The notes below the pieces were generated by a model. The model saw only the letters and a program-made list of their open reading frames with translations. It did no database searches and had not been told where the DNA came from. A DNA stretch of 64,000 nucleotides from positions 7,492,635 through 7,556,634 of the forward strand of contig NC_087079.1 of assembly GCF_026151205.1 (NCBI RefSeq), written 5' to 3'. The translations under genes were made by a program, and so were the position numbers. This stretch comes from Bolinopsis microptera. Its lineage: Eukaryota > Ctenophora > Tentaculata > Lobata > Bolinopsidae. Shown piece after piece: positions 2,563 to 59,600 of the stretch (positions within the stretch are counted from its first letter, which is position 1; each line of letters opens with the position of its first letter).

Positions 2563-4363
2563 CAGTAGACTCACATTAATAACACCAGCAAAGAGGACCG
2601 CGAAGACAGGCATAGTAACACCATTAGCTGCCGCACCCAGACTTCCCAATCCTGAGGGAGAGAGTGTTATCCTGGTGGTGAAAATATGGAACGTTATAAA
2701 ACTTATAGTGTGACGTCACACCACGTGAAAATAGGGCACGTTATAAAGCTTATAGTGTGACGTCACACCACGTGAAAATAGGAACGTTATAAAACTTATA
2801 GTGTGACGTCACACCACGTGAAAGTAGGGAACGTTATAAAACTTATAGTGTGACTTCACACCACGTGACATGACGTCACACCACGTGAAAATAGGGGACG
2901 TTATAATTTATAATACTTAAAGGAGCACGTTATAGAAGCTCAGCAAGTAAACAGTTTCAGAGATAAGTAAGACTTTTCACGAATTTTTGTTACCTTAAAT
3001 AATTGATGAGGAACAATTATAGCTAGAATAATATTTAAGTCTAAAGATATAAAGATATTATAGTTAACTTCTGCTTTCTTTCTACCATTAATGGTAATAT
3101 TATATAATGAGTTGTAGTATTTACCCATGAGAGTATACTCAGCATGATTACATTCGTTTAATATCTCCAAAAACGTAGCTGGTTTGATTTCTTCCTCAGG
3201 GATCTCTTCCACTTTCTCGTCAGTCACTACTTTTACCTGCTGTTACAATCTGTTTAATCTCATTAGATGACGATTTGATCCCTGGGATGTGTTTTGAACA
3301 GATCTTTTTTTTCTTCTTTTTTTTTAAACTGTAAAATCCGACATTTGAGAGGATCTATGAGTCTGAAAGGTTCTATGATAGGTTCTACATGAAATAATTG
3401 AATGAAAATATAAAATGTTAAGATTTTAACCTCTTCTTCAGCGTCAGAAAGCATGTCCAAAACATACCGGGACTCTTTTACAGGACTTCCAACTTTTCCA
3501 TTAAATGTATCCTGAGCATGCAATAATTAAGTAATCAAGCGAGTTAATTTAAAACAACAACTTTTCAGTTCGTTGATAAATTGATAATTAACAAATGATT
3601 GGACTCTCAAATCTCACACATAGACACAATGAGTAATGAGCATGTAAACACTTTACATTGACAATTTCCATTTAAAAAGTATATTGTAATGAGTTACTGT
3701 TCACAAAGACTGAAAGGAGTGTTCACATTTAACGGTAGCTCGGTAGTGATCTGTGTAAGATCTGTGAAAGATGTGTGTAAGATGTGTGTAAGATGTGTGT
3801 AAGATATTTGTAAGATTTTTGTAAGATTTTTGTAAGATAAGCGATTGGCTCAACATCAAAACAACACACTAAACCTACATCCAAGATTTGTTCAAGTTCG
3901 ACCTGTTGAATCGTATGCTGTTCATCATTTCGATGAAAATAAATGAAAACATATCGACAATTCACATCATATTAATAGTTTTGATGTAATGATAAATCAA
4001 TCAAAGTGCAACCTTTATAGAATTTATTCTTGAGAAAACATATAAATCGACATTGAATTTACGCAATTTTAATATAAAATTTCACAAAATGTACCTAACA
4101 ATATAGGTAAAAACACGTTTAAGGTATATAGCAAATAATAAGGATATTTTGACGAGAAACTTTCGGAAATGTTTAAAATTGTGAACGTTATATTAAATTA
4201 TTATTTAAGAAATGTAAATTTCTTTAATCATATAATAAAAGATTACGTCTGAAAGAAGTATAAAAACCTTAATTTCCTGTAGAGTTGAGGGGAGTTCTAC
4301 TCCATCCGCCGTCATTATACTTACAACCTTGTCTGAAACTGTCATAGCCTTCTCATCTTCATC
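35..4363 (-). CDS. ABCB exons 15-25: linker and TMD2
   Basis: Linker exons 15-16 (4363-4268, 3511-3431) are acidic and low in conservation. Exon 17 (3236-3125) begins TMD2 with [16 protein letters not shown]. Exon 18 (2651-2575) is [20 protein letters not shown] (TM7). Exon 19 carries TM8. Exon 20 (1575-1498) is [15 protein letters not shown]. Exon 21 has [17 protein letters not shown], the second coupling-helix motif. Exon 22 (1070-913) has TM9-10. Exon 24 has [15 protein letters not shown], and exon 25 has TM11-12 ([19 protein letters not shown]). The exon 25 donor at 35/34 shows that the gene continues leftward into NBD2. The 3' end of exon 18 and the 5' ends of exons 20 and 22 are duplicated in neighbouring intronic repeats. 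Confidence 0.92.
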
Positions 4364-7300
4364 CTGATGATTATAATATATTAACTAATAGCTAATTATT
4401 TTTTTGATTAATAAGTCAATTAGTTGCACTAATTTTTCCTATCAGAAACATTATTACAAAGTTACACACTACAACCCGCTATGTAGGTACTCCATAACGG
4501 AATCAACTGTTCAATGCTAATTAATTATGACTAATTAATGAGTTAATTGATCCTACACTAGTAATTACCTGAACAGCTTGTTGGTAGTTAACCAGACCCC
4601 GGTAAAGTCCGCCAGTAACCTACACTAGTAATTACCTGAACAGCTTGTTGGTAGTTAACCAGACCCCGGTATAGTCCGCCAGTAACCTACACTAGTAATT
4701 ACCTGAACAGCTTGTTGGTAGTTAACCAGGCCCCGGTAAAGTCCGTCAGTAACCTACACTAGTAATTACCTGAACAGCTTGTTGGTAGTTAACCAGACCC
4801 CGGTATAGTCCGTCAGTAACCTACACTAGTAATTACCTGAACAGCTTGTTGGTAGTTAACCAGGCCCCGGTAAAGTCCGTCAGTAACCTACACTAGTAAT
4901 TACCTGAACAGCTTGTTGGTAGTTAACCAGACCCCGGTATAGTCCGTCAGTAACCTACACTAGTAATTACCTGAACAGCTTGTTGGTAGTTAACCAGGCC
5001 CCGGTATAGTCCTTCAGTAACCTACACTAGTAATTACCTGAACAGCTTGTTGGTAGTTAACCAGACCCCGGTAAAGTCCGTCAGTAACCTACACTAGTAA
5101 TTACCTGAACAGCTTGTTGGTAGTTAACCAGACCCCGGTAAAGTCCGTCAGTAACCTACACTAGTAATTACCTGAACAGCTTGTTGGTAGTTAACCAGAC
5201 CCCGGTAAAGTCCGTCAGTAACCTACACTAGTTATTACCTGAACAGCTTGTTGGTAGTTAACCAGACCCCGGTAAAGTCCGTCAGTAACCTACACTAGTT
5301 ATTACCTGAACAGCTTGTTGGTAGTTAACCAGACCCCGGTAAAGTCCGTCAGTAACCTACACTAGTAATTACCTGAACAGCTTGTTGGTAGTTAACCAGA
5401 CCCCGGTAAAGTCCGTCAGTAACCTACACTAGTAATTACCTGAACAGCTTGTTGGTAGTTAACCAGACCCCGGTAAAGTCCGTCAGTAACCTACACTAGT
5501 AATTACCTGAACAGCTTGTTGGTAGTTAACCAGACCCCGGTATAGTCCGTCAGTAACCTACACTAGTAATTACCTGAACAGCTTGTTGGTAGTTAACCAG
5601 ACCCCGGTATATTCCGTCAGTAACCTACACTAGTTATTACCTGAACAGCTTGTTGGTAGTTAACCAGACCCCGGTAAAGTCCGTCAGTGACCTACACTAG
5701 TTATTACCTGAACAGCTTGTTGGTAGTTAACCAGACCCCGGTATAGTCCGTCAGTAACCTACACTAGTTATTACCTGAACAGCTTGTTGGTAGTTAACCA
5801 GACCCCGGTAAAGTCCGTCAGTAACCTACACTAGTAATTACCTGAACAGCTTGTTGGTAGTTAACCAGACCCCGGTAAAGTCCGTCAGTAACCTACACTA
5901 GTAATTACCTGAACAGCTTGTTGGTAGTTAACCAGACCCCGGTAAAGTCCGTCAGTAACCTACACTAGTAATTACCTGAACAGCTTGTTGGTAGTTAACC
6001 AGGCCCCGGTAAAGTCCGTCAGTAACCTACACTAGTAATTACCTGAACAGCTTGTTGGTAGTTAACCAGACCCCGGTATAGTCCGTCAGTAACCTACACT
6101 AGTAATTACCTGAACAGCTTGTTGGTAGTTAACCAGGCCCCGGTATAGTCCTTCAGTAACCTACACTAGTAATTACCTGAACAGCTTGTTGGTAGTTAAC
6201 CAGACCCCGGTAAAGTCCGTCAGTAACCTACACTAGTAATTACCTGAACAGCTTGTTGGTAGTTAACCAGACCCCGGTAAAGTCCGTCAGTAACCTACAC
6301 TAGTAATTACCTGAACAGCTTGTTGGTAGTTAACCAGACCCCGGTAAAGTCCGTCAGTAACCTACACTAGTTATTACCTGAACAGCTTGTTGGTAGTTAA
6401 CCAGACCCCGGTAAAGTCCGTCAGTAACCTACACTAGTTATTACCTGAACAGCTTGTTGGTAGTTAACCAGACCCCGGTAAAGTCCGTCAGTAACCTACA
6501 CTAGTAATTACCTGAACAGCTTGTTGGTAGTTAACCAGACCCCGGTAAAGTCCGTCAGTAACCTACACTAGTAATTACCTGAACAGCTTGTTGGTAGTTA
6601 ACCAGACCCCGGTAAAGTCCGTCAGTAACCTACACTAGTAATTACCTGAACAGCTTGTTGGTAGTTAACCAGACCCCGGTATAGTCCGTCAGTAACCTAC
6701 ACTAGTAATTACCTGAACAGCTTGTTGGTAGTTAACCAGACCCCGGTATAGTCCGTCAGTAACCTACACTAGTTATTACCTGAACAGCTTGTTGGTAGTT
6801 AACCAGACCCCGGTAAAGTCCGTCAGTGACCTACACTAGTAATTACCTGAACAGCTTGTTGGTAGTTAACCAGACCCCGGTATAGTCCGTCAGTAACCTA
6901 CACTAGTTATTACCTGAACAGCTTGTTGGTAGTTAACCAGACCCCGGTATAGTCCGTCAGTAACCTACACTAGTTATTACCTGAACAGCTTGTTGGTAGT
7001 TAACCAGACCCCGGTAAAGTCCGTCAGTAACCTACACTAGTAATTACCTGAACAGCTTGTTGGTAGTTAACCAGACCCCGGTAAAGTCCGTCAGTAACCT
7101 ACACTAGTAATTACCTGAACAGCTTGTTGGTAGTTAACCAGACCCCGGTAAAGTCCGTCAGTAACCTACACTAGTAATTACCTGAACAGCTTGTTGGTAG
7201 TTAACCAGACCCCGGTATAGTCCGTCAGTAACCTACACTAGTAATTACCTGAACAGCTTGTTGGTAGTTAACCAGACCCCGGTATAGTCCGTCAGTAACC

Positions 7301-8581
7301 TACACTAGTTATTACCTGAACAGCTTGTTGGTAGTTAACCAGACCCCGGTAAAGTCCGTCAGTGACCTACACTAGTTATTACCTGAACAGCTTGTTGGTA
7401 GTTAACCAGACCCCGGTATAGTCCGTCAGTAACCTACACTAGTAATTACCTGAACAGCTTGTTGGTAGTTAACCAGACCCCGGTATAGTCCGTCAGTAAC
7501 CTACACTAGTAATTACCTGAACAGCTTGTTGGCAGTTAACCAGACCCCGGTAAAGTCCGTCAGTAACCTACACTAGTAATTACCTGAACAGCTTGTTGGT
7601 AGTTAACCAGACCCCGGTATAGTCCGTCAGTAACCTACACTAGTAATTAACTGAACAGCTTGTTGGTAGTTAACCAGACCCCGGTAAAGTCCGTCAGTGA
7701 CCTACACTAGTTATTACCTGAACAGCTTGTTGGTAGTTAACCAGACCCCGGTATAGTCCGTCAGTAACCTACACTAGTAATTACCTGAACAGCTTGTTGG
7801 TAGTTAACCAGACCCCGGTATAGTCCGTCAGTGACCTACACTAGTTATTACCTGAACAGCTTGTTGGTAGTTAACCAGACCCCGGTAAAGTCCGTCAGTA
7901 ACCTTCATCAGCTCCTCGTGTGTCCCCTCCTCCAATACCGCTCCGTCTGATAAAGCGTATATCTTATCTACATCCCGTATTGTTGAGAGACGATGTGCTA
8001 TTATCAGAGTCGTACGTCCTTCTCTAGCCTGGAGTGTTCAACTTTTACAATACTAAATACTCCTTTATAATAGTCTTACAGTTACATACTTTCATGGAGA
8101 TTTAAGTACGATTTCTGTTGCATTAAATCTTGAATCCAAATTAATTTCACGACAATATATAAGTTAAATCTTAACCCATTTTTTTTGCAGTGTTATAAAC
8201 TTTCCCCACCTTATCTAGTGCCTGTTGCACTATTTTCTCCGATTTGTTATCGAGAGCACTGGTCGCCTCATCAAGAAGGAGAATCTTAGGGTCGCGCACT
8301 AGTGCACGTGCAATGGCTATGCGCTGCTTTTGCCCTCCTGACATCTGACTCCCTCTCTCGCCACATAACGTATCGTAGCCCTGTTAAGAATTAGTTACAG
8401 GTATATTTTAGTGTTGTCAGGTAAAATGGGCACTACAAATTACCGCTAATTACACCAATTCTTTAATATTTTGATTCACTATTCTGTTATTAACAACTCT
8501 CATTTCAGTACAGGGGCCTATATAAAGTTAAAACACGTTTACACTATACATGATATTATAGGGAAGTAAGACAATAATCAT

Positions 8582-8628
<47 letters not shown>

Positions 8629-11600
8629 TCACCTACATCCTCCCTGATTCCTGGTAAGCTGGTACAACTCTGTTACTCAGTTGTAACCTAAATTAACTTA
8701 CGAACAATAAAACTGCCTCATTTCTATACCGGTGCAATTTCACATTACACAAGCATAATTATGGTATAAATACTTGAAGTTAATGTACATTATGGAACTT
8801 ACCCAGACTGGATATAACTATAAGTGGTCCACTGTGATAATATAAGTGGTCCACAATTATGGTCACGTACACAATTACGGTCACGCACAGTAATTTAAAT
8901 TGTTCAAGAGCATCTGTCTCCCTGTAAAACACTGGATGGAGTCTGTAGACCTTTGGCATGGTTCTGACTTTTCATGACAACTTTTGTCTGCACTTCAATG
9001 GACGCAAATTTTTATAAAGATTTTGCCACATTTCCGAATAAAATGGTTGACGGACGATTATTCCTCCAAATATCATGGCAAAACAAGGATATGGATCTCT
9101 CAGTAAAGCGCGGCTCTCTCCTGGAAGCAATCTTAGTGTGTGTACACTGTACATTGTACATTGTGCACTATACAATGAGCAGTGTAAATAGTGCATATAT
9201 CCGGATCTTAACTTACTTGAGCTAATTTTCAAATAGTTTTGACAAGAGAGAGAGAGAGTAGAGACCACACGAGCTGAATACAGTCGTTAAAGTGGTTTGT
9301 ACGGATTGAAATAATCATGGTAACAAGCTCACAGCTACACAGTACACAGTTATACACATAGTGCAGTGTGTAAACGGTACGTGCCGTACATGTCTTGTAC
9401 GTACCGTGAACGTGTCTTGTACGTGGCGTGTACGTGCCGTGTACGTGCCGTACGTGCCGTGTACGTGCCGCACGCGTACACACTAGACAGTAGTTATTAC
9501 ACTGCATTTTATACTGAAGATCAGAGAGTTATGCGGTGTGCAGCTCGTCATTAATCTCTGGTTTAGAACTGTCAATTATACTCCGTATATAATAAGTGAG
9601 TATAATCTGCGAGTCAGTGCCATGTGAAGCTTATTTAAATAATAATATAATGATTATTAACCTGTAATTTACTAGCAATTTATTCATGAATTATAGACGT
9701 TCCCAGAGTGCAGGGTTTCCACACAACAAAGTTATAAAGTAAATTATACGCTCAACTTACCCTACTAAGTTATACGCTCAACTTACCCTACTAAATTATA
9801 CGCTCAACTTACCCTACTAAATTATACGCTCAACTTACCCTACTAAATTATACGCTCAACTTACCCTACTAAATTATACGCTCAACTTACCCTACTAAAT
9901 TATACGCTCAACTTACCCTACCAAATTATACGCTCAACTTGCCCTACTAAGTTATACGCTCAACTTACCCTACTAAGTTATACGCTCAACTTACCCTACT
10001 AAATTATACGCTCAACTTACCCTACTAAATTATACGCTCAACTTACCCTACTAAATTATACGCTCAACTTACCCTATTAAATTATACGCTCAACTTACCC
10101 TACTAAATTATACGCTCAACTTACCCTACTAAATTATACGCTCAACTTACCCTACCAAATTATACGCTCAACTTACCCTACTAAGTTATACGCTCAACTT
10201 ACCCTACTAAATTATACGCTCAACTTACCCTACTAAATTATACGCTCAACTTACCCTACTAAATCATACTGCTGGGATAGGCCAGCTACCATGGGGTAAG
10301 ACCCATATGATAAGACAGATAGTATGCCTGGTTTTGGTCTTTAGGTTGGGTAGTGGTCGGAGCCTGCAGCGGATCTGCAATAGAGAAGTCAGACGGGGTC
10401 ATAAAAGTGGCTACCTCAGCCTACATCGGTACCACGCCTCCTGCTTCTCTAAGGCCCCGGGAGTCTTTATTTAGAGACGAGTTGCCCGGGTTAACAATAA
10501 AGGCTTTGTAGGCATCCCTCCACTTACCTGTACTCCGGAAAAGGACAAATTTAGGTAGTCGAGAGTCCTCGACGGTTGAAGCAGGAGAGGGACAGAGTTG
10601 TATCTGTGTATGTGGACGTCGGTTTGACACAGTCAAAGGCAGGAATATCCATCGGGGTCGAATGAAGTGCATTTGGGAAGGGGAGTCGTCGGCTGGCAGT
10701 ATGCCTGTAACTTCGACGGAGGTATCTAGCCAGGAAAACAACCACAGTGCTAGAGATATCCGGGCTCTCCTTGACAAGAGAATTTCAGTCGAACCACCTG
10801 CTAGCAAAAGAGACAAGGTGAAGTGGCCGGCGTCCAATGATGGTCGATGGAGTAAGTTTGATGAGTGTTTGGTAGAGAAGTTTGCAGTGGTTCTCAAGCG
10901 GAAACCATTTCAAGAGAAGATGGTGAGTCATTGTGATGTAGTGTACGACGAGGGTGTCAAGTTGTTTGGTATTGTTGAAGTAGGTGCTGGTAGTGGAAAG
11001 AAGTCCATGAGCTTTAAGAACAGGCGAAAGGAGGAGATTGACAGCCTGATTGAAAAGAGGAAGCAGTTGAGGAGGAAGAAAAGGAAGGCAAGGAGTGAGA
11101 TAGAGAAGGATGGTTATGAGGCATTATTGAGAGTGTTGGCTGGTCGTTTGATGAAGTTGAGGAGGGCTGAGAAAAGGAGACAGAAGCAGAGAGAGATAAG
11201 GAGAGTTAGAGGGGATTTTGGACGCGACCCTTTCAAGACAGTCAAGGGAGTGCTAAATCCAAGTCCAGTGGGGGAGCTTAAGTGTTCAAAGGAGGAGCTA
11301 GATGATCACTTGGCCAGAACGTACGGAGATCCAGCCCGGCAGCAGCCCCTTGGTATACTTGAGGGTCTGCCTGAGTGTGCTCCTGAACCCTCTGTTGCCT
11401 TTGACCTCACAACGGTATCCAAGAAGGAGTTTGAGGAGGTTGTAAAGAAGGCAAGGAGCAAGAGTGCCCCGGGGAACAACGGGATCCCGTACACAGTGTA
11501 CAAGAGATGTCCTGGTATTGCCAAGAATCTCTGGGACCTGTTAAGAACTGGATATAAGTTAGAAGAATATCCTGACAATTGTAGGTATTTCGAGGGTGTC

Positions 11601-14600
11601 TACATCCCAAAGGCGGATGGCGACTTTTCACCAAGTTCAGGACGGCCTATTTCCCTGGGTAACATTCAAGGGAAGATTTATTTGGCGATCCTGGCGAAGA
11701 GGTTGACCAGCTTTGTTGTCTCGAATGGATATGTAGACCTCTCTATACAGAAGGGTGGTGTGCCAGGCGTCCGTGGGTGCACGGAGCATTTTGGTGCCAT
11801 GTGGGAGGTACTGAAGGAGGCAAAGGTCAAGAAGAAGGATCTGAGTGTGGTATGGCTTGACCTGGCTAACGCTTACGGAGCGGTACCCCATGTTCTGATT
11901 GCCAGGGCCCTCCGTTTCTACAACGTCCCCGAGAAGGTTATCAATATTATCCTACGGTACTTCTCCGGGGTATTCGGAAGGTTCTCCTCAAGAACGGTGA
12001 CATCAGACTGGCAGCAGTTTGAGATAGGAATCTTCATGGGGTGTGTGATATCAGTCATCTTGTTTGTCTTGTGCATGAACCTTGGGCATGAACACCTAAA
12101 GTCTAAGGTTCCGAGAAGCATTGAGTACATCAAGGATGACACACCGATACCAACTCTGAAGCTGTTTATGGACGATAGCTGTCTGACGACCGCACGTGCA
12201 GAGGATATGCAAACGTTACTCAATGTGTTTCAGAAGTACGTGGACTGGTCCAGATTTAAGTTAAAGTCCTCCAAGTCCAGAGCACTGGTGTTGAAGAAGG
12301 GAGTGGCTGTGAGGTGGGTTGAGGAGGTAGTGGTAGGAGAGGAGGAGGTGGAGAGAGAAGAGGTGTGTTTGCAGTTGGGTGGTGAGGTGATTCCGAATGT
12401 GTCAGAGAAGCCGATAAAATTCCTTGGGAGATGGATAAGAGTGGAAGGAAATGACAAATCAGTCATCGACTCAACCAAGGTCGACCTTAACACTTTTCTT
12501 CGGAGACTCGATGAAAGTTCCCTTACTGGACTCCAGAAGTGCTGGGGATATCAGTACATGGTCCTTCCAAAACTGAAGTGGCCTCTTGCCATCTATGATA
12601 TTCCGATCACAACAGTTACCAGATGGGAACAGAATACCAATAGTTTCCTCAGGAAGTGGTTAGGGGTGGGGCACACTCTGAGTGGTCTTTGTCTGTTCAG
12701 TCAATCATCCAGTGTGGCCTTACCGGTGAGCAGTTTGACAGATACATGGAAGATAGAGAAGTGTCGACTGTTGCAATCCTATCAGACATCTAAGGATGAC
12801 CTGATTAAAGCAGTCCAGCCCCAAGTTCGTTCTGGTAGAGTTTGGAGGCCTGAGACAGAACTGGAAGAGGCCAGAAGAGATTTGGTCTGTGAATCGGTGC
12901 GAGGGATGGTGCAACCTCAAAAAAGAGTTGGCATCGGTTTTGGTGACTGGAAAAAATCTTGGGAGAGGATGGATGAACGGGAAAGAGAGAGGGAGGTTAT
13001 GCTGAGAGTGAAGGAGAACGTTGAAAGAGAGAGGGAGGTGCAAGTAGGTTCTCTGGAGATGCAGAGCAGGTGGGGTGAGTGGAGAGAGCTCGTAATGAAG
13101 ACGGATTTGAGCTGGCATACACTTTTTAAGTATGGTGACTCACTTATTGGGTTCATGCTAAGTGCTGTGTACGGCACCCTCTTAACCCCCTCTATGGTTT
13201 CCAAGTGGAGTGAAGATGAGGATGGGAAGTGCAAGTTATGTGAGGAGAGGATGGGCACCATTCAGCACATTTTGGCTGGGTGTAAGGTGGCCCTTAGTCA
13301 AGGAAGGTATAGATGGCGGCACGACAAGGTTCTGAAGCAGATCTCTGAACAGGTTGTCTTCCATTGTGATCGCCGAGTGAACACTTATAAGAACAAGGCC
13401 GGCGATGGAAGGCAGTTCATTGATTTTGTTCCTGCTGGGAAAAGAAAAGCAGGTACAGACGACCGGAAGGAGAGTCGTGGTTTTGGGATCCTGAGTGGGT
13501 ATCGGGATTGGATAGTGCTGTCAGACCTTGAGGGGCAGCTTAAGTTTCCCAGTGAGATTGTGGAAACACGGCTGAGGCCGGACCTTGTGATATTCTCAAG
13601 GTCGGCAAAGACAGTTATTTGGTGGGAGCTAACAGTACCATCTGAAGAGCGGATCGCTGAATCGCACGAGTACAAGCTCGACCGATACAGCGGTCTGCAG
13701 GCTGAGATTCAGGCGGAAGGTTGGTGCTGTTATAATGCCGCAGTCGAAGTTGGAGCTAGGGGAGTGGTTGCGCAGAGTTTAGAGAGAGCTGCGAGGAGGA
13801 TTGGTTTTAGGGGAAGAGAGCTGAAGAAGCTGGTACGGGACAGTGGGAAAGAGGCAGCCCACTGTTCCAGATGGATCTACTTGTTATCGAGAAAGAGGGA
13901 GTGGGAGTTCAGGAAGGTTGGAGCTTGAGAGTTCACTATAACATCTAGAGGTACCATAAAAGTTATCTCGTCGCCAATTGCGAGCTCTAACGGGTCTCCT
14001 CAAGTGACTCTCGGATCAGATGGTGGTTCAAGGGTGGACTGCTGGGGCGCCTGACAGGAAACCGTATTGCGATTAAAGCCCCGAAACGGTGTCAGGTTGG
14101 TAACTGATGATTCTGATCCATGCTCCTGTGAGTTTGCTGTTGTATCTCAACTCGCTAAACTGAGGCATCTCCGCATCTTGGGTGAATATGCGTACATCTT
14201 CATACTAAACCCAGGTGTGGCATGTGTCAGTGAATACGGGCGAGCGGATGCAATAGCGAAGGTGGTGTGACAAGGCCTAAAAGACACAGTCAGATAGTTG
14301 TCAGCTCGCTGACTGTAAGGGAGAAGGTATATCCGTATTTCGCTGCTACTGATGCAGTCCTTGATCTGGCAATCAAGGCTTCTCTGTTTTTCGTCTAACT
14401 ATGTACCGTTGGGCTTGTGGAACCCGTCAGGGGGACATATATAGGTTAGAATGGTTTTGTGCACCAAGAGGAGTGAGGGAATGAGGGTTGAAGAGAGAGA
14501 GCTAGAGAGTTGTTAGGGTGGTTAGGATCAGTATGTGGAGTGTTTGGTTGGAGCGTTCTGTTTTTGCTGTATAGCATTTTAGTCACTCCGCAGTTTATTA

Positions 14601-17600
14601 ACTGTGTCTCAACTATACGCGCTCAACTTACCCTACTAAATTATACGCTCAACTTACCCTACTAAGTTATACGCTCAACTTACCCTACTAAATTATACTC
14701 TCAACTTACCCTACTAAATTATACGCTCAACTTACCCTACTAAAAATACTAAAATTCTTATCACACTAAAATGAACGTATCATACTATACTAAAATAAAA
14801 ACCTTGATTGAAATGTACAGGCTATAATAATGCATATTATACTTGAACACTGAGTATGATCCTAACAGAAACACCGCTGCAGTAAGAGGTAGGGACTAGG
14901 GAAGGTGCCAAGAATTATACCCGAAATGGCAGTAATCAGTATACTGACAGTGTGTAAACTATGTCATTTTACTGGCACCTGTTTCTATACACTCTAATTA
15001 ATTGATAAGGTATGATAAAGAACTTCAATAGAAATTATAACGTGTATCAGGAATGTGAACTGCAATCCTCAGCAGCTCTAGACTGGGTAAATTATCGTTA
15101 TGTTTTCTTTACACAGTAAAACAGTGTGTGTAACCCATAACATAATGCATCACGTACCTGCATCACGTACCTACCGTGCAATTAGGACAGACTACACGAC
15201 GTAGTGACGTACACACTAAAGGTACACCTCTCTGAGGCAGGGGTTTGGTTAATTAGTTAGAGCAGACACTGTATTACGTAATTGATTACAGCTGATGTTC
15301 TAGACAAGAATTATAGGGTATTACGTAATATAGTAGGATTAGGTATAGACTTTAGTATGGGTTAGTAGGGGAACTACTGGTTACCTAACACTCTCTATGC
15401 CGTCTAAAGCGAGTGATTTTTTCAAAATATTAAGTCCACACAGCGCAAATTTGATTTTTCTCTCCGACTGATCTTTTTTAGCCTTTTTTTCTTGAACGCC
15501 CGATAAAACAGCGGGGACGCAACTTACAATCTAATTCATTCTTTACAGTTTGAATCACAGTGTAATGAAAGTACATTGTACAAAAGATCTGTTGGTGTGG
15601 CAGGGAAGATCAGAAAGTCCAAAAGATGCAAAATGTACAAGAATTAAGATGCAAGTTGTAAGTTCATGGCAATTAATCTTGACTAGGTACCTGCTTCCGC
15701 TAACCAAGACACCAGTTACCAGTCACCAGATCTCAGTTACTAGATAAGTTACCAGATCTCAGTTACTAGATAAGTTACCAGATCTTTTGTCTGATTTTTT
15801 AATAGAGCTGAAATTTAAATATGTACTACAATTAACCACAAGCGAAGACATGTATTCTCCAGTTCTTGTCTCTAACCGAAAATAATCTATTATATTCTGA
15901 GCTCTCCCATTCGGAGGTAAGAGTTGACATCTTACAGATTTAACTGATCCTAACTAAGGTTAAACCCTAGTTTAACTCAATTAATTAACTTATTAATTAT
16001 TATATTATATAACTTTATTCAAATCAAAAATAGAACATAAAGAACATCTTGATGACCTTATGAGTATTGCTGAAAGCACAGTGTAAGGCCTACACGGACC
16101 GCCTCTAACTAGCCAATCCCTGTTTACATGACTTATTAATTAACTCATTAATTAACTCATTAATCAACTCATTAATTAACTCATTAATTAACTCATTAAA
16201 TGACTCATTAATTAGCTCAATAATCCAACAACTCACATCTGGAAGCTGGGATATAAAGTCGTGTGCGAACGCTTTCTTAGCTGCTTCAACTATCTCCTCT
16301 TTACTAACACCTTCCCTTCCGTAACGGATATTTTCCTGATTAATGAATATTATACTTTAAATTATTAAAGTTGTCACTGAATTTACTGAATTTAAATTAG
16401 TATGTAATGTAAAAGCAATGACTTAATTCAAAACGGTAAATAATAAAATTATACCGAAACAGAATCATCAAATTATATCGATCAATGATATTTAAGTATC
16501 GAGATTAATGATTAAATATAGGTTTAAATAGTGAAATTAGTGATTAAATATCCTAACCTCAACAGAGGTGGAGAAAAGTACAGGTTCCTGTCCAACTAGA
16601 CCGATCTGTTCTCTTAACCAATGTAAATTCAGCTTCTTTATGTCCACTCCATCAAGTAAAACCTAAGATATGTGTGCTGGTAAATTCCATTATAGCCATA
16701 ATATAGGTATTCGTTAGATTGTTGGAAACAGACAGCACGAGTATTTGCTGTGACAACTAAATTAATGGTTACCATGACAACTACACTGGTTACCATGATA
16801 ACTACACTGGTTACCATGACAACTACACTGGTTACCATGACAACTACACTGGTTACCATGACAACTACACATGTTACCATGACAACTACACTGGTTACCA
16901 TGACAACTACACTGGTTACCATGACAACTACACTGGTTACCATGACAACTACACTGGTAACAACTAACCGATCCCTCAGTAACATCGTAGAATCTCTCCA
17001 GAATGGCCACAGCAGTACTTTTACCACACCCACTTTGACCAACGAGAGCGTGTGTTTTGCCAGGCTCTAATACCAAGTTGAAATCCTTCATTATCTGAGG
17101 TAGAGAAATCAGAGAGTTAGCTGGTTATTGACTATGATTGATTCTTCGGAGATTTACAGGGGTGACAAGAAGATTGGTACATCTGGAATCTGAACATATC
17201 ATGTAGCACGACCAATCAATAACCCAAACGGGTCAATCGTTGGAAATATTAATCTGATTAAGCTATTAATTAAATAACACTACTAATAAATATTCGTTAT
17301 GTACAAGTTCTAACTTCTATTCCATTTGATTAAACAAAATAAAGTAAAATGGTATTTACCGTAATATCAGATCGGGAAGGATAGCTAAAATTACAGTTTT
17401 TAAACTCTATTCTCCCCTCCAATCCTGGTATCGTCTCCCCTCCCTCCTCCTCGTGGTCTATCTTTGATTCCTGAAGTTTGACAGCGGTACAATACTTGCA
17501 AAATCTTGTAAAATCATTCAAAAATAACTTGAGGAGACGATGAATCTATTCTGATTATTGACCTTCTTCATAAAACAAAACACGTAAATCTCACAGACCC

Positions 17601-20600
17601 TATCAATAGTAGCGAATACTTTACAAGCAGCCCCGCGCCCTACAGTCATTATCTTCCACTGGGGAGCAGCGAAGCCCATTCCCCACGCTCCAATCAGGAC
17701 GTTGAAGAAAGCAACTAGAACATCAGCTGGTTTAGTGGTCCCCTCCCCTGTTAGCTTAGCTCCGTACCTAGAGGGGTTACACCGTGGTTACTGTGGTTAC
17801 TGTGGTTACTGTGGTTACTGTGGTTACTGTGGTTATTGTGTTTACTGTGGTTACTGTGGTTATTGTGGTTATTGTGTTTACTGTGGGTACTGTGGTTACT
17901 GTGGTAACTGTGGTTACATGCTGTTGTAGGTCACAGTTATCATGCTATACAGATTAGAGCATTATATACTTCGCTGAGTGCCATGCTAGAGTTGGTTCTT
18001 TTGTGATACTGAAAACGCTACAACTAGCACTGGATCGCGACAACGAGTGCTGAATAACGCTAGTTGTCGATATCCAGCGCTAGTTGTCACGTTTTCACTA
18101 TCGCAATTTAAGAACCCTAGAGTTAACATCAAGGTCGGCATAATTAAGTGTAAGATGGTCTTAAAAGTGAAATTAAAAGTAAAATTGTACTCAAATAGTC
18201 TAATTGGTTGAAGATTGTAATTTCAAAGTACTTTGAAAATCACCTAAATTTCAATGTAGAGATGATTACTACATCGGATTACTCACCAAAATGCCAGTGC
18301 GTACATCAAAAACATCAGTCCATTAACTGAGGCAAGAGATAAGGCATAAACTAGTGTGTTTTTCTTTCCAGTTTCCACTGTTGTGTCTAACTTTCCCTTA
18401 TACCTGAAATATTACAATATTATGATTAAAAACTTTAAAATATTATGACAGTCATTGAATAATTATACAATTTTCTCAGGTTCAAACTACGATTAGATTT
18501 AACAAGTTAGTGATGCCTTAGATGATCGTTTACCACCGAAGACACATATTCTATAGCTATGGTCTCTAATCTACAATTTATATGATGTATTTTTAGCTCT
18601 TTACCTCTGATAACATGACAACTACACAGGTTACAGGTTACCATGACAACTACACAGGTTACCATGACAACTACACAGGTTACCATGACAACTAGACTGG
18701 TTACCATGACAACTACACTGGTTACCATGACAACTACACTGGTTACCATGACAACTACACTGGTTACCATGACAACTACACAGGTTACCATGACAACTAC
18801 ACAGGTTACCATGACAACTACACTGGTTACCATGACAACTACACAGGTTACCATGACAACTACACAGGTTACCATGACAACTACACAGGTTACCATGACA
18901 ACTACACTGGTTACCATGACAACTACACAGGTTACCATGACAACTAGAGAGTCACATCTGATGACTTCAGTGAAAGGGCTGATGACTTCAGTGAAAGAGC
19001 TGGTGACCTAGTGAAAGTGCTGGTGACGATGAGAAAGACCATAAACCAGGGATTCCTTCGGGAGCATGTAAGATTATATCCAAAGTTTGTTCGCCAATGG
19101 GGTGTGTCTGGGTGTCAAAGATCTTCAAGGTGGGTGCTACTTGTGATGAACTCTAGAAGGATGGGATGGTAATACTCGGTCTGGCCGTCTGGAAGCCCAT
19201 AGAATTCCAGTTCAGAAACCGAGTAAGGAGGTGCGGCTACTGATGAGAAGCCTCCTTAAAGTTTATTTGGGTTAGAAACGACATCTGGGTCCCTACCCTC
19301 GCACAAGATTATTCTCAATTTTCTTGTTGTGTCCACAACTATACCGTTGATCAGAGTCACATCTGATGACTTCAGTGAAAGGGCTGATGACTTCAGTGAA
19401 AGAGCTGGTGACCTAGTGAAAGTGCTGGTGACGATGAGAAAGACCATAAACCAGGGATTCCTTCGGGAGCATGTAAGATTATATCCAAAGTTTGTTCGCC
19501 AATGGGGTGTGTCTGGGTGTCAAAGATCTTCAAGGTGGGTGCTACTTGTGATGAACTCTAGAAGGATGGGATGGTAATACTCGGTCTGGCCGTCTGGAAG
19601 CCCATAGAATTCCAGTTCAGAAACCGAGTAAGGAGGTGCGGCTACTGATGAGAAGCCTCCTTAAAGTTTATTTGGGTTAGAAACGACATCTGGGTCCCTA
19701 CCCTCGCACAAGATTATTCTCAATTTTCTTGTTGTGTCCACAACTATACAACTACACAGGTTACCATGACAACTACACTGGTTACCATGACAACTACACA
19801 GGTTACCATGACAACTACACAGGTTACCATGACAACTACACTGGTCACTATGACAACTACACAGGTTACCATGACAACTACACTGGTTACTATGGCAACT
19901 ACACAGGTTACCATGACAACTACACAGGTTACCATGACAATTACACAGGTTACCATGACAACTACACAGGTTACCATGACAACTACACAGGTCACCATGA
20001 CAACTACACAGGTTACCATGACAACTACACTAATTACCTCTGAACCTCTGTTTTCTCGCCCCCAAAAGCAACCACAGTCCTAATACCCCCGATAACTTCC
20101 TCTGCAACAGCCCCAGCTGCAGCGTAAGCAGTCTGCTCTTTTGCTGTGAAACCCGCCAGGACCTGGTTGTAATAATCCCAATAGTACAGAATATCATGAT
20201 AAAGAAAATTTAAACGATTATAAGAAATAATTGATTTTACAATTTAGAACATGGCTGGTTATGAAAACAGGTGCGACTAGACGTCGAGGAACAACTTTAA
20301 TTTAAGACTGCAAGATTTTGAAATTTTAAAACTGAAATCTTTGTCTTTTTTAAAATCCTATTTCACAGAAAGTGCAAACTGTGCATTTTTATATTTGTTA
20401 GATTTTTCAACATCTTTTCAGCTTTTGTCGTACATTTAAATATTATTATAAACAGTAGCACAATAATATGGTACCTTAGCAAAAATAGCACTAAGAACAC
20501 CCATGATAGGTGCGACAGACATTATAACCAGGGATAGTCGCCAGGAGTAGGAGAAAGCAATCGCAATACCACTTAAAAAACAGAAGGTCCAAGTGACAAA

Positions 20601-22322
20601 TAGGCCTGATTTGTCTGACAGACCGTCTCTTATCATCTCTATATCCCTGAATTAACGTTTATTACTGGTTACCATGAAAACTACACTGGTTACATGAAAA
20701 CTACTGCACTGATTACCATGACAACTAGACTGGTTACCATGACAACTGATTAAAAGATAATAAAAAACATGCCAACCCCTGGAGTCTTGTAGTAAGTTCA
20801 CCACTTGATACCGTATCATACCATCCCACCTCTTGTCTTAGCATTGCTCTGAAATACGCTTTACGCACTCTGGACGTTTGCCTCTCCGCAGAAATGTTTA
20901 AAAATGCTGTGGCGACATATCCAGCCAATACCTGGAACAGGCCCAGGCCAATGTACCATAATGCGAACGTTAACATTTCTTTTTGTATATTAATATTTGG
21001 ATCATTCTCCATAGCTTCAGAATTTGATCCTAAGTTTTCAATCATTTCACCTGGAGAAACGTAAGTGGGTCAATATACGTTTAGAAAATGAAACTGCGAG
21101 ATTATGTGAGTGGTAACTCATCAAAAAAACATTTTAAAACTTTGGTAATCTAGCTAGGCACACTTGGGGAACACTCGTGACACACTAGGGGCAAAAAGTT
21201 ATTTGGGGCACACTTGGGGCCACAGACAGCTGCTTTTTAGGGAAGTCGTTTTTTAGGGAAGTTGTTCACTTAGATAAAAATGAGAGGGATGTTAACAAAA
21301 AATCAATTTGGGGTATTTTTGGTACAACCTAATTTATTTAAAGATAATTTAATTAATAATTAATTATAAATTACATTCTTACCAAAAATAATCATGATTC
21401 CAGGCCAGGAAAAGCCTTTGAACATCGCAAACAGGAATCCAGTTAAAATCAAAAGCCAGTCAACTGCTGTTGCATATCGATACTGAAAAATACATGATCA
21501 TGTGAATTTTTAATATTCAGGAAATTGCTGAACAGCAACCTCTACATGATTAAGTTTGAGATAGGCCTTTTGTATTCAATTTTGAAAATCTTGGACCTGG
21601 CCTCGTTTTCTTACGATTTTTTGAGGTCCAAGATTTTCAAATTAAATAAAAAATTTAAATAAAAAAAAGGCCTAGATCTCAAAATTTTGTCTGAGCGGTC
21701 TCTTTTAAATGGTGCCTATACTAGAACATATCCTGAAAGTTTGAGGGTGATTGCTCAAAAAAAGTAGGATTTCAGAGTGAATTTTGACGAAGACCCTTCT
21801 CCCGGCCCCCTTAAATATGAAATCACAGGTAAGGAAGGCCCTAACATTAACGAATAATTAGTTATAGTTACTTACATATTCAAGGATTCCAATAAGAGGT
21901 TCTTCTTCCTTTTTTTCCTTCTTTTTCTTGCCAGACTTCTCCTTCTCCCTGAATGAATGTGGTTATTTCGATAGGATTTTCCAGATATGATAGTTGAATG
22001 TACATGTTGTGTGCAACTATAATGATTGTGTCTTTTCCTAAAATTTCAGTAGTCAATAAAACGAGTTGATTGTTTTCAATGTAACTGTACAGTGGCCGTA
22101 TCGTGACCGTATCGTGGCCGTATAGACTATAGAGCCGTATAGTAACCGTATAGTGGCCGTAAAGAGGCCGCATAGTGGCCTTATATAGGCCATATCTACC
22201 AATTAATCTCCATATAATAAACAATCAAGTACATACTTTTTTGAAGGTTCATCAACCTTAACACTGACATCCATCGCTTCAGTTTCATTCAAACCGTTTG
22301 ATAGCACACTTTCCGATGCCAT
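35..22322 (-). CDS. ABCB full transporter (P-glycoprotein/MDR-like), 3' end beyond window
   Basis: Multi-exon gene for an ABC subfamily B exporter, a plasma-membrane ATP-driven pump of hydrophobic compounds in known family members. Coding exons in transcript order: 22322-22237, 21948-21876, 21482-21383, 21050-20777, 20646-20475, 20162-20038, 18403-18287, 17767-17599, 17470-17360, 17094-16969, 16662-16558, 16335-16237, 8380-8210, 8028-7852, 4363-4268, 3511-3431, 3236-3125, 2651-2575, 2184-2062, 1575-1498, 1353-1263, 1070-913, 696-651, 441-336, 175-35. All junctions keep frame and give about 1005 residues. Order is TMD1, NBD1 (Walker [10 protein letters not shown], signature MSGGQ, Walker [14 protein letters not shown]-loop IIAHRLST), linker, TMD2. 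NBD2 must lie left of position 35. The initiator is [10 protein letters not shown] at 22322, in a hydrophilic N-terminus typical of the family. Introns are unusually rich in minisatellites. Exon edges at 913/696 are the least certain. Confidence 0.95.
913..1210. repeat. 49-bp tandem repeat copying the exon 22 acceptor
   Basis: Three copies of a 49-bp unit start near 1062, 1111 and 1160. Each contains, on the coding (minus) strand, the exon 22 splice acceptor context CCTGCAG/GTTCACGTG or a one-base variant. Units also contain CACGTG. The genuine acceptor is the copy at 1071/1070, which joins in frame to exon 21. Confidence 0.8.
1575..1735. repeat. GTGAAA microsatellite with a partial second copy of exon 20
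   Basis: Exon 20 (1575-1498) is followed upstream on the coding strand by a (GTGAAA)n run at about 1602-1668. Beyond it, at about 1669-1730, lies a second copy of the exon 20 acceptor and its first 30 or so coding bases (plus-strand CTCTCGCTCATAAGTCCAAT). The second copy runs into the microsatellite and cannot encode the full exon. Confidence 0.75.
2365..2590. repeat. GAAAGA-rich repeats carrying duplicated exon 18 donor
   Basis: The sequence around the exon 18 donor (minus strand ATTAAT/GTGAGTC) occurs three times, near 2375, 2435 and 2570. The copies are separated by (GAAAGA)n and (AAAAGA)n tracts. Only the copy at 2575/2574 follows coding sequence. Confidence 0.8.
2690..2900. repeat. Tandem repeat with CRE (TGACGTCA) and E-box (CACGTG) sites
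   Basis: An intronic array of four to five degenerate units of roughly 46-60 bp. It contains perfect TGACGTCA palindromes at 2711, 2758, 2804 and 2871, each followed within a few bases by CACGTG. TGACGTCA is the consensus for CREB/ATF-type bZIP factors and CACGTG for bHLH factors. Whether the sites are used is unknown. Confidence 0.8.
4567..7918. repeat. 67-bp minisatellite, 50 copies, derived from the 3' end of ABCB exon 14
   Basis: The anchor GAACAGCTTGTTGG starts at 4571 in the first copy and 7854 in the last, exactly 49 periods of 67 bp. On the coding strand each unit is 51 nt of coding sequence (17 codons ending [14 protein letters not shown]) plus a 16-nt intron piece GTAATTACTAGTGTAG. 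Every copied segment is thus flanked by an apparent acceptor (GTGTAG/GTTACT) and donor (CAG/GTAATT). Variants spaced 1139 bp (17 units) apart recur, for example CCTTCAG at 5010 and 6149, showing a higher-order duplication. No unit seen has a stop or frameshift in the 51-nt part. One unit near 7648 has lost the donor G. Confidence 0.95.
7852..17470 (-). CDS. ABCB exons 9-14: NBD1
   Basis: Exons 17470-17360, 17094-16969, 16662-16558, 16335-16237, 8380-8210 and 8028-7852 encode the first nucleotide-binding domain. Seen in order: aromatic A-loop region [10 protein letters not shown], Walker [10 protein letters not shown] (about residue 430), Q-loop [19 protein letters not shown], signature MSGGQKQR (Met for the usual Leu), Walker B with catalytic Glu ([11 protein letters not shown]), D-loop and H-loop (IIAHRLST). 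These residues predict an active ATPase half-site. Exon 14 ends [14 protein letters not shown]. Its last 51 nt plus 16 nt of intron form the unit of the 50-copy 67-bp array. The 7856-bp intron between 16236 and 8381 holds an R2-like retrotransposon. Reading through the exon 14 donor adds VITSVGY and then a stop. Confidence 0.95.
8581..8626. repeat. CT microsatellite
   Basis: A pure (CT)n run in the large ABCB intron, with no associated gene feature. Confidence 0.95.
9370..9480. repeat. GTACGTGCC-type short tandem repeat
   Basis: Imperfect tandem copies of an 11-bp GTACGTGCCGT-like unit rich in CG dinucleotides. It gives spurious open frames on both strands. The rest of 8381-9740 shows no gene. 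Confidence 0.8.
9741..10264. repeat. 26-bp minisatellite, left array (about 20 copies)
   Basis: The unit is built on ATTATACGCTCAACTTACCC plus TACTAA. On the host-gene (minus) strand each copy carries AGTAGGGTAAGTTGAG, a near-perfect splice-donor consensus (AGG/GTAAGT). The array breaks at 10264, where the R2-like element starts, and resumes at about 14614, so both flanks belong to one original array. Confidence 0.92.
10662..13928 (+). CDS. Retrotransposon polyprotein: reverse transcriptase plus restriction-like endonuclease
   Basis: 1088 codons from the first ATG. The frame is open upstream to 10512, and that extension encodes a finger-like [18 protein letters not shown]...C motif, so translation may start upstream at a non-ATG codon, or the start is lost. 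RT motifs: [16 protein letters not shown] (catalytic Asp), [31 protein letters not shown] (FMDD rather than the commoner YADD/FADD). After the RT comes a CCHC finger [18 protein letters not shown] (residues about 860-877). A PD-(D/E)XK-like nuclease follows, with [20 protein letters not shown]. The protein is expected to nick its target and prime cDNA synthesis there. No disabling mutation was seen. Confidence 0.93.
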   Translation: MKCIWEGESSAGSMPVTSTEVSSQENNHSARDIRALLDKRISVEPPASKRDKVKWPASNDGRWSKFDECLVEKFAVVLKRKPFQEKMVSHCDVVYDEGVKLFGIVEVGAGSGKKSMSFKNRRKEEIDSLIEKRKQLRRKKRKARSEIEKDGYEALLRVLAGRLMKLRRAEKRRQKQREIRRVRGDFGRDPFKTVKGVLNPSPVGELKCSKEELDDHLARTYGDPARQQPLGILEGLPECAPEPSVAFDLTTVSKKEFEEVVKKARSKSAPGNNGIPYTVYKRCPGIAKNLWDLLRTGYKLEEYPDNCRYFEGVYIPKADGDFSPSSGRPISLGNIQGKIYLAILAKRLTSFVVSNGYVDLSIQKGGVPGVRGCTEHFGAMWEVLKEAKVKKKDLSVVWLDLANAYGAVPHVLIARALRFYNVPEKVINIILRYFSGVFGRFSSRTVTSDWQQFEIGIFMGCVISVILFVLCMNLGHEHLKSKVPRSIEYIKDDTPIPTLKLFMDDSCLTTARAEDMQTLLNVFQKYVDWSRFKLKSSKSRALVLKKGVAVRWVEEVVVGEEEVEREEVCLQLGGEVIPNVSEKPIKFLGRWIRVEGNDKSVIDSTKVDLNTFLRRLDESSLTGLQKCWGYQYMVLPKLKWPLAIYDIPITTVTRWEQNTNSFLRKWLGVGHTLSGLCLFSQSSSVALPVSSLTDTWKIEKCRLLQSYQTSKDDLIKAVQPQVRSGRVWRPETELEEARRDLVCESVRGMVQPQKRVGIGFGDWKKSWERMDEREREREVMLRVKENVEREREVQVGSLEMQSRWGEWRELVMKTDLSWHTLFKYGDSLIGFMLSAVYGTLLTPSMVSKWSEDEDGKCKLCEERMGTIQHILAGCKVALSQGRYRWRHDKVLKQISEQVVFHCDRRVNTYKNKAGDGRQFIDFVPAGKRKAGTDDRKESRGFGILSGYRDWIVLSDLEGQLKFPSEIVETRLRPDLVIFSRSAKTVIWWELTVPSEERIAESHEYKLDRYSGLQAEIQAEGWCCYNAAVEVGARGVVAQSLERAARRIGFRGRELKKLVRDSGKEAAHCSRWIYLLSRKREWEFRKVGA
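13929..14613 (+). other. 3' UTR of the R2-like element
   Basis: Non-coding tail of the element from the stop codon to the resumed 26-bp repeat. Open frames here are short and unsupported. The terminal bases (TGTGTCTCAACTATACG) resemble the end of the 405-bp module at 18947-19749 (TGTGTCCACAACTATAC). Confidence 0.7.
14614..14744. repeat. 26-bp minisatellite, right array (about 5 copies)
   Basis: Continuation of the array at 9741-10264 on the far side of the retrotransposon, same unit and orientation. Confidence 0.92.
14745..16236. other. ABCB intron sequence without recognised gene
   Basis: No coding exon recognised. Contains short repeats such as ATTAATTAACTC copies at 16135-16215 and TTACCAGATCTCAG copies at 15717-15785. 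The exon 12 donor is at 16237/16236. Confidence 0.7.
16766..16968. repeat. 21-bp X-box-like minisatellite, array A (about 9 copies)
   Basis: Tandem 21-bp units with the core GTTACCATGACAAC. The array starts directly at the exon 10 donor (16969/16968). The core fits the degenerate RFX X-box form RYYNYYATRRNRAC and is one base off the canonical GTTACCATGGCAAC. Period 21 is a multiple of three, so long meaningless ORFs (MTTTLVT repeats) appear. Confidence 0.9.
17599..22322 (-). CDS. ABCB exons 1-8: N-terminus and TMD1
   Basis: Eight exons encode the cytosolic N-terminus and first transmembrane domain. Exon 2 (21948-21876) is a Lys/Glu-rich pre-TM stretch ending PLIGILEY. Exon 3 (21482-21383) has TM1 ([19 protein letters not shown]). 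Exon 4 (21050-20777) has TM2 and the intracellular loop ending [17 protein letters not shown], matching the family's SGELNTRL coupling region. Exon 5 begins [15 protein letters not shown], exon 6 contains [14 protein letters not shown], and exons 7-8 hold TM5-6. The exon 4 donor (GGG/GTTGGC at 20777/20776) is weak but is the only one that joins in frame to exon 5. Introns 4, 6 and 7 hold tandem arrays that start at or near donors or acceptors. Confidence 0.93.
17780..17925. repeat. 9-bp GGTTACTGT tandem repeat beside the exon 8 acceptor
   Basis: About 16 copies of a 9-bp unit in ABCB intron 7, starting about 15 bp from the exon 8 acceptor at 17767/17768. Confidence 0.9.
18613..18945. repeat. 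21-bp X-box-like minisatellite, array B (about 16 copies)
   Basis: Same unit as array A, in ABCB intron 6. It is separated from array C by a duplicated 405-bp module. Confidence 0.92.
18947..19749. repeat. 405-bp module in two near-identical tandem copies, inserted in the 21-bp array
   Basis: The two copies start with GTCACATCTGATGACTTCAG at 18951 and 19356 and end with GTGTCCACAACTATAC near 19343 and 19749. They look identical by eye. The module lies inside the 21-bp array, and its end resembles the 3' end of the R2-like element. It may be a 5'-truncated retroelement tail or a SINE-like passenger; no coding capacity was recognised. Confidence 0.8.
19742..20037. repeat. 21-bp X-box-like minisatellite, array C (about 14 copies)
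   Basis: Starts right at the exon 6 donor (20038/20037). One unit near 19884 reads GTTACTATGGCAAC, closer to the classical X-box. Confidence 0.92.
20664..20748. repeat. 21-bp X-box-like minisatellite, array D (degenerate, about 4 copies)
   Basis: Short degraded stretch of the same family in ABCB intron 4, about 30 bp from the exon 4 donor. Confidence 0.8.
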
Positions 22323-56600: not shown

Positions 56601-59600
56601 GATGTTAAATTTCCAGAATGGTAAATTTCCAGAATGTTCAATACTTACGCTTTGTGTTTCAGGAGCTCCTGGATGCATTTAGTTGGATCGTAACTCAGTC
56701 TGATCGACCGCTGTACTGCAAAATGTTCATGTCAGATAGAGACAAATCATGAGGGTTAAATATTCAAACAAAACAGAGGGCACACAATAAACTTAATAAA
56801 AAACAAACGTAAATTTTAATATCTTCAACAACTAGAATGAAATCTCAGTACGTAAATTTAGTAAACTTACATCTGAGGAAGGTGTTAATGTCCCGGGTTA
56901 CAACTAGAAGTGGCGTTAGTCCCTCCTCCGTCATGTTATCCAGCACATTACCCCCTGAATGGGTAGCCTGTGACAGGAATTACAATTAATTAACGTTAGT
57001 GATTGCCAGGTCGAATGATTTCTAGGGATTAGAAGTAGATAATAAATGGTGAGTATGCGTACGTGGCTATGACGTAAATTGAGGGATAACAATTTGGTAA
57101 GCATAAAACAAATGTTAAGATGAAAATTCACCAGTATGTTCTTAAGAGACACGATATCTCCTTGCCATGCTGCCTTTATGACGGCTACTGCGGAATGAGC
57201 CGGACTCTTTGGGTACTTCGACAGGACGGAGAGTCGGAGATAGTTGGAGGCTAGATCCAGAGCCCCTTTACCATCCTCGTTCAGGAGTGTCACATCAGCT
57301 CCTCTCTCTACCAGCGCTTCTACCACCTGGATACACACATTATCTAATTCACACATTATCTAATTCATTGTGAGAAGTAGGAAATGTCTCCTTCTACCAC
57401 CTGGATACACACATTACTTAATTCATTGTGAGAAGTAGGAAATGTCTCCTTCTACCAACTGGATACACACATTATCTAATTCATTGTGAGAGGTAGGAAA
57501 TGTCTCCTTCTACCACCTGGATACACACATTATCTAATTCATTGTGAGAAGTAGGAAATGTCTCCTTCTACCACCTGGATACACACATTATCTAATTCAT
57601 TGTGAGAAGTAGGAAATGTCTCCTTCTACCAACTGGATACACACATTATCTAATTCATTGTGAGAAGTAGGAAATGTCTCCTTCTACCAACTGGATACAC
57701 ACATTATCTAATTCATTGTGAGAAGTAGGAAATGTCTCCTTCTACCACCTGGATACACACATTATCTAATTCATTGTGAGAAGTAGGAAATGTCTCCTTC
57801 TACCACCTGGATACACACATTATCTAATTCATTGTGAGAAGTAGGAAATGTCTCCTTCTACCACCTGGATACACACATTATCTAATTCATTGTGAGAAGT
57901 AGGAAATGTCTTCTTCTACCACCTGGATACACACATTATCTAATTCATTGTGAGAGGTAGGAAATGTCTCCTTCTACCACCTGGATACACACATTATCTA
58001 ATTCATTGTGAGAAGTAGGAAATGTCTCCTTCTACCAACTGGATCAGAGGCACATATTAGGTGTGGTAAAAAAATCGAAATTATGCGGTACCGCACCCTA
58101 CTATAAAGGTAAAATGTGCGGTAAGGTGCGGTAAATTTTTACCAATTATGCGACAAATGTGCGGCGATTTTTTCGAAATTTGTGCGGGAATTGTGCGGGT
58201 TTTTTTTGCATTTTCTTAAGGACTTTGGAAATTCTAAACGTATAACCGCCGCTCTTATCAAAAATAGGTCTGTTTATGTGTTACTGAGGGTGTAGTTCTT
58301 TACTAAGACCATGATTGAACCTATATTGAGGTCAGTTATCTGAAAACAGTGACTTGATCTGGTAGAGATCAGGAATCAGGATACAGTTATTTGAAGACGC
58401 CTCTTGATAGAGTCGATCAGATCCCATGTGTGATCGCAAATATGTGACACGCTTGTTGGCATTGATCGTCAGTATTTGTGAACCATTTGATCCAAGATCC
58501 ATTAAGCCCACTATAAAGCCAACGCTGCAACGAATAAAGCTTATTACCCTTTACACCTACTTCTTCTATTATCACCTACGAATGATAACTGATACACTAT
58601 AATCGAAGTACGGTAACGACGAGGGTTCCATAATGGCCTGGGTCACGGTCCCGAAGGGGCCTGGATCACGGTCCCGAAAGGGCCTGGGTAGTGGGTAACG
58701 GTCCCGAAAGGGCCTGGGTAACGGTCCCGAAAGGGCCTGGGTCACGGTCCCGAAAGGGCCTGAGTCACGTGGCCTAAGCATGAGTTCCAAAAGGGCCTGG
58801 ATCACGGTCCCGAAAGGGCCTGGGTTAGGGTCCCAAAAGGGCCTGAGTCAGGGTCCCGAAAGGGCCTGAGTCACGGTCCTAAAAGAGCCTGACTTTTAAC
58901 ATATTTTGGTTTTTACACTCGAAAATCTTAACGCGAAAATTTCAAAATTATGCGAAATTACGCGGAAAATGCTAGATTATGCGGAAATATGCAGATAATT
59001 ACAAAATGTGCGGAAATGTGCGGAAAACAATAAATTGTGCGGAAGTGTGCGGAAAACGGTAAATTGTGCGATCCCGCACCCATCGCACCTAATATGTGCC
59101 CATGAACTGGATACACACATTATCTAATTCATTGTGAGAAGTAGGAAATGTCTCCTTCTACCAACTGGATACACACATTATCTAATTCATTGTGAGAAGT
59201 AGGAAATGTCTCCTTCTACCACCTGGATACACACATTATCTAATTCATTGTGAGAGGTAGGAAATGTCTCCTTCTACCAACTGGATACACACATTATCTA
59301 ATTCATTGTGAGAAGTAGGAAATGTCTCCTTCTACCACCTGGATACACACATTATCTAATTCATTGTGAGAAGTAGGAAATGTCTCCTTCTACCACCTGG
59401 ATACACACATTATCTAATTCATTGTGAGAAGTAGGAAATGTCTCCTTCTACCACCTGGATACACGCATTATCTAATTCATTGTGAGAAGTAGGAAATGTC
59501 TCCTTCTACCACCTGGATACACACATTATCTAATTCATTGTGAGAAGTAGGAAATGTCTCCTTCTACCACCTGGATACACACATTATCTAATTCATTGTG

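Follow-up and report, generated by a model that had tools for sequence, protein, structure and literature searches.

A 50-unit minisatellite across an exon-intron boundary of an ABCB1-like transporter gene in Bolinopsis microptera, probably inert and recently expanded

The original report of a 'mirage' minisatellite, in the Adh of amphioxus, is said to have been published in NAR in 2002. Later work (PMC3087553) describes such repeats in Adh3 and in the globin genes BflGb6 and BflGb9: they are minisatellites made of duplicated intron-exon boundaries, at either edge, with many AG and GT signals; their copy number is unstable, they undergo concerted evolution in the cluster, and splicing is apparently regular by RT-PCR. 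The same paper gives 6 and 3 units for BflGb6 haplotypes, states that the units at the cluster boundary are excluded from homogenisation, and mentions somatic instability of the Adh3 mirage (PMC3087553). In human segmental duplications, variable ITRs at exon-intron boundaries, with units of 30 bp repeated 4 times on average, have been associated with RNA-supported new introns (PMC2812944). A related process, intron gain by tandem duplication (the Rogers model), is described for potato RdRp (PMC4974935) and for Drosophila cases (PMC2891723).

The array described here, from the ctenophore Bolinopsis microptera, looks long but otherwise ordinary in kind, an exon-edge repeat of the sort already described in amphioxus. 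As in the amphioxus mirages, each unit spans an exon-intron boundary, with 51 nt of exon and 16 nt of intron, copy number differs (here 50 vs 4 between duplicates) and the units evolve in concert. Unlike BflGb6, with its 6 and 3 units, the array has 50; moreover, copy number was compared here between paralogues and not between haplotypes, and the host is not amphioxus. The likeness to the human variable ITRs lies in a boundary minisatellite whose number of copies has diverged between recent segmental duplicates, but here the unit is 67 bp long and repeated 50 times, with no sign of a new intron. The tandem duplication with AG/GT at the unit edges (here and below, a slash marks the splice junction) recalls the Rogers model. 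However, that model starts from a gene in which the intron is absent before duplication, and here four paralogues without the array share the donor position; intron and donor are thus ancestral, an existing boundary was duplicated and no new intron is implied. No published report of this array was found in searches on boundary repeats; the one search directed at ctenophores listed no paper that mentions them, so that absence from print is not thereby established.

The window, i.e. the whole stretch of 64000 nucleotides that was analysed, contains the array on its minus strand at positions 4553 to 7902. TRF reported it at 4552-7904, with a period of 67, 50.0 copies, 97% matches and 0% indels, and parsing of the minus strand from 7902 down to 4553 gave 50 units of exactly 67 bp each, free of indels. 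The preliminary description of this DNA had correctly given 50 tandem copies of 67 bp, each made of the last 51 nt of an exon and 16 nt of intron, but had placed the ends at 4567 and 7918, 14-16 bp off. The unit reads GTTACTGACGGACTTTACCGGGGTCTGGTTAACTACCAACAAGCTGTTCAG (51 nt, 17 residues) followed by GTAATTACTAGTGTAG (16 nt). Across the 50 units 9 of the 67 columns are variable, and 13 distinct unit types occur. In every one of the 50 units the 51 nt form an open frame, in agreement with the earlier statement that the exon part bears neither stop nor frameshift in the copies then read. The further claim that every copy keeps both splice sites holds for the AG/GT ahead of units 2-50, which is intact in 49/49, but not quite for the donor GT, which is kept in 49/50 units and replaced by TT in unit 4. 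As had also been noticed, the commonest coding variants, three in number (present in 20, 5 and 5 units), are all synonymous; the four rarer ones (2, 2, 1 and 1 units) are all non-synonymous. The 17-residue peptide is identical in 44/50 units, with one substitution in each of the other 6, so that the copies do not encode different sequences as those of a cassette array should.

Unit 1 (7836-7902, minus strand) consists of the genuine exon end (7852-7902) and the first 16 intron nt, with the donor CAG/GTAATA after 7852, as indicated by the unit parse, the exon chain and the same exon end in four paralogues. Judged by the exon chain and the structure match, the host exon (E11 by our own count; 7852-8028, minus strand) encodes the end of NBD1 in a transporter that resembles ABCB1. 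The host intron, delimited by comparison with the duplicate described below, covers 4364-7851 of the same strand, i.e. 3488 nt, and the array lies at its start; the next exon, identified from the exon chain and acceptor scoring, lies at 4268-4363 (minus strand) with the genuine acceptor ATCATCAG/GATGAAG and an own donor end that is less certain. Joining 23 exons gives a 947-codon open frame, which leaves out one further 5′ exon that does not join in phase; the frame runs across the junction after 7852 and thereby confirms the donor proposed there. Over residues 1-946, the best match of the 947-residue product among solved structures is ABCB1. The idea of a transporter lacking NBD2 was dropped, since an NBD2-type exon is present at C8:7480439, C8 being the sequence that holds the window, and at C5:19290887. 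Between E22 and the NBD2-type exon of C8, a protease-like frame (papain-like by eye) occurs on the same strand at L011:1877-3002, apparently inside the transporter gene.

The host exon is found with 100% protein identity at one other place, C5:19260701. The two regions are segmental duplicates of each other: they align in pieces, the main ones 88-99% identical, which start at window position 17917, pass the start of the window and end about 10 kb outside it. The C5 copy of the array has 4 units vs 50 in the window, and the host intron measures 397 nt vs 3488 nt; the 46 additional units (3082 bp) make up nearly the whole difference. A comparison of exons E6-E22 (1948 nt) between the two gene copies gave 27 synonymous against 2 non-synonymous changes (ratio 0.023) and no stops, with a silent divergence (pS) of 0.060. 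These coding differences show that both array-bearing copies, the 50-unit one and the 4-unit one, are under strong constraint, and hence that the array is tolerated. Four further ABCB paralogues were examined, two on C13, one at C8:10.36 Mb and one at C5:7.02 Mb, in which the neighbouring NBD1 exon is 73-85% identical. In all four the host exon ends at the same codon (...LVMYQQQVQ/GTATA), with a single unit, and the array is absent. Thus the first donor is ancestral and the array derived. The C5 stretch also holds a 39-bp repeat of 34.6 copies (L009:986-2342), within a part that is inserted relative to the window copy.

As to the history of the array, a higher-order repeat (4821-6696, minus strand) emerged from the unit parse and a lag test: units 19-29 (6696-5960) are the same, in order, as units 36-46 (5557-4821). 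When units were compared at 25 different lags, a lag of 17 gave an identity that 0/1000 shuffles matched, the next best lag being 18 (P = 0.012), and together these observations point to exchange of large blocks. The four C5 units carry 5 of the 9 variant states of the C8 array, which suggests either that a small array of several types predated the gene duplication or that the copies exchanged units later; the other 4 states are absent from C5. If each lineage has accumulated about 3% silent change (half of pS), 49 units of 67 bp should together hold some 98 private changes, against the 4 variant states just mentioned. So few private changes, given the silent divergence of the two copies, indicate a late expansion in C8. 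The coding unit 1 of C8 is distinguished from that of C5 by two sites, both of which segregate inside the C8 array, and the only unit type common to both arrays is C5 unit 1. The coding copy therefore appears to have been exchanged with array units, unlike the excluded boundary units of BflGb6, and seems to join homogenisation; two sites carry this conclusion, and recurrent mutation is an alternative.

The copies show no clear sign of the selection that the preliminary description had suggested, while naming homogenisation as another possible cause of the pattern. Among the 7 distinct coding changes a synonymous excess was not seen (3 synonymous and 4 non-synonymous; P = 0.31 if the changes are neutral), and the coding part has the same density of variants as the spacer (7/51 vs 2/16). 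An equal spread over codon positions, which had been put forward as evidence against selection, is not strictly what is found: the distinct changes number 1, 2 and 4 at positions 1, 2 and 3 (P = 0.17 for at least 4/7 at position 3) and, counted by units, 1, 3 and 32. The division into common variants, all synonymous, and rare ones, all non-synonymous, gives a one-sided Fisher probability of 1/35 = 0.029, but this split is post hoc, and an array undergoing homogenisation does not yield independent variants.

The real donor, after 7852, scores 7.3 bits, and 35 of the 50 array donors score higher, at 8.2 bits; competition between them is plausible. Use of any of donors 2-50 leads to a stop (49/49), which follows VITSVGH, so that the choice of another donor cannot alter the linker, contrary to what had been put forward as a possibility. 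Alternatively, splicing might join donor 1 to an acceptor from unit 3 onwards, in which case 17-codon mini-exons would lengthen the NBD1-TMD2 linker in frame. Inclusion of any of units 2-50 would indeed keep the frame in 49/49 cases (51 nt, both ends in phase 0), the AG/GT is intact throughout, array donors are strong and the common coding variants are silent. But the array acceptor, GTGTAG/GT, scores at most 1.7 bits with a matrix built from 23 sites of one window; 20 of these 23 real acceptors score higher, the remaining 3 fall below the array's best, and a score as high is reached by about 20% of the AGs of the minus strand. Given the 16-nt spacer, moreover, at least one unit (83 nt) would have to be skipped, blocks were duplicated in unit order, so that invariance of the AG/GT need not mean conservation, and the four paralogues do without the array. 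We regard inclusion of mini-exons as very unlikely. Its extended form, a live ladder in which some transcripts would carry in-frame 17-codon units, the length of the linker being set by splicing and by the size of the array, and the 49 intronic copies constantly overwriting the coding one, deserves slightly less credence still. The preliminary description had left two readings side by side: either one copy is chosen at a time, or an exon edge gave rise to an inert satellite. The latter is supported; the former is disfavoured by the stops (49/49), the weak acceptors and the want of clear selection.

The 49 extra donors could also act as splice-regulatory decoys that titrate U1 or restrain premature polyadenylation, with copy number tuning expression. 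The commonest array donor, CAG/GTAATT, agrees with the donor consensus at 8/9 positions, and 24 of 25 listed donors reach 7 at most. Yet unit number is 50 in one and 4 in the other of two constrained duplicates, and the spacer is as variable as the rest of the unit (2/16 columns, one of the changes destroying a donor); a decoy role is accordingly as doubtful as the ladder of mini-exons. Finally, long near-identical arrays are prone to misassembly and the true copy number might be far lower, but the 50 units stand in perfect 67-bp register, with 13 unit types and a block structure, and a small array of the same 67-bp unit is present on C5. Of all the explanations considered, an assembly artefact is the one to which we attach the least probability.

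The best reading is that of a recently expanded, inert boundary minisatellite, in whose turnover the coding unit may share; that it is a 'mirage' of 50 units in C8, with the first donor used and 49 inert intronic copies, we hold to be highly probable. Its first step would have been a short tandem duplication of the final 51 exon nt together with the donor and 16 intron nt, probably through a 2-3 bp microhomology, AG(G), between GATGAAG/GTTACT in the exon and GTGTAG/GATCAA in the intron. A small array of several unit types probably preceded the C8/C5 gene duplication, unless the copies swapped units later. The C8 array would then have grown to 50 units by unequal exchange of multi-unit blocks, C5 being at 4, and the coding copy itself may have exchanged with array units. 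Judging from sequence, the gene very probably uses only the first, ancestral donor, to which the spliceosome would keep; the other 49 copies would lie in the intron with nothing visible to selection, and are presumably inert and without function. If so, nature has set up at this locus a clean test of how splice sites are chosen, for dozens of intronic donors score as well as the real one, and copies with 50 and 4 units are both constrained despite these donors. The array further suggests that boundary mirages of the amphioxus type also occur in a distant animal, that within a gene rich in minisatellites they occur about as often as chance predicts (one gene having been tested), and that they may draw coding sequence into satellite turnover.

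Other boundaries in the window are duplicated as well, as found by TRF, motif counts or both. On the minus strand, the exon end GTTATTAAT/GTGAGT occurs three times at the E15 donor (2360-2585; both methods), the acceptor and exon start CTTCAG/ACAT of E17 occur twice with a run of TTTCAC hexamers between them (1540-1735; motif count), and a 49-bp repeat of 3.1 copies holds three copies of the E19 acceptor CTGCAG/GT (1061-1214; both methods). In the C5 copy, a 40-bp duplication at L010:7663-7745 contains the E20 donor GAAGCTTCAG/GTACTA twice (motif count) vs once in the window. Outside the transporter, a gene that is ankyrin-like by eye carries, at 57350-60839 on the minus strand, a 58-bp unit with the acceptor TATCCAG/GTGGTAGAAG in about 12 + 30 copies by TRF; by motif count the acceptor is present in 40 of about 42 units, followed by G in 31 of them, as in the coding copy, and by T in 9. 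Translated from the acceptor, the consensus unit ends in VVEGDISYLSQ and a stop. This array is split by an insert of about 1 kb (58045-59106), whose ends resemble inverted repeats.

An enrichment of arrays at splice edges was considered and rejected. In the 22.4-kb part of the transporter gene, arrays cover 4 of 48 edges vs 14.4 expected over all circular shifts (P(≤4) = 0.007), with the TRF list after extension of one array and addition of one by hand; the TRF list alone gives 2/48 vs 13.9 (two exons being placed roughly). Shrinking the big array to 4 units lowers the expectation to 7.8 edges, with P(≤4) = 0.15. The number of arrays that touch a splice edge is 4 vs 5.0 expected (4.5 with the shrunk array). 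Splice edges are not targeted by arrays but, if anything, avoided, and in the one gene tested the boundary duplications are tolerated chance hits in minisatellite-rich DNA, with no targeting mechanism. Arrays with a period of at least 18 cover 10352/64000 bp (16.2%) of the window, 5815/60000 (9.7%) of the C5 stretch and 2553/20000 of the C8 flanks, vs 4807/157050 bp (3.1%) of 44 other loci, which were picked by gene matches and not at random (the 30 best kinase matches, mostly with the whole domain within one open frame, and 14 ABC loci). By this comparison, the window is array-rich.

Within introns of the transporter gene, a 21-bp unit (GTGTAGTTGTCATGGTAACC-like) forms four arrays, at 16766-16958, 18633-18946, 19748-20030 and 20664-20747, three of which lie within 30 bp of an exon edge. 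A 405-bp segment is tandemly duplicated at 18948-19749 with 100% matches by TRF, and this duplication is probably very recent. A 26-bp array (9740-10269 and 14620-14744) is split by an element at 10266-14620 with a reverse-transcriptase-like frame (non-LTR by eye); the C5 duplicate has about three copies of the 26-mer at this site and lacks the element. The first 396 bases of the element are found at 13 other places with at least 99% identity, all matches starting from the same base.
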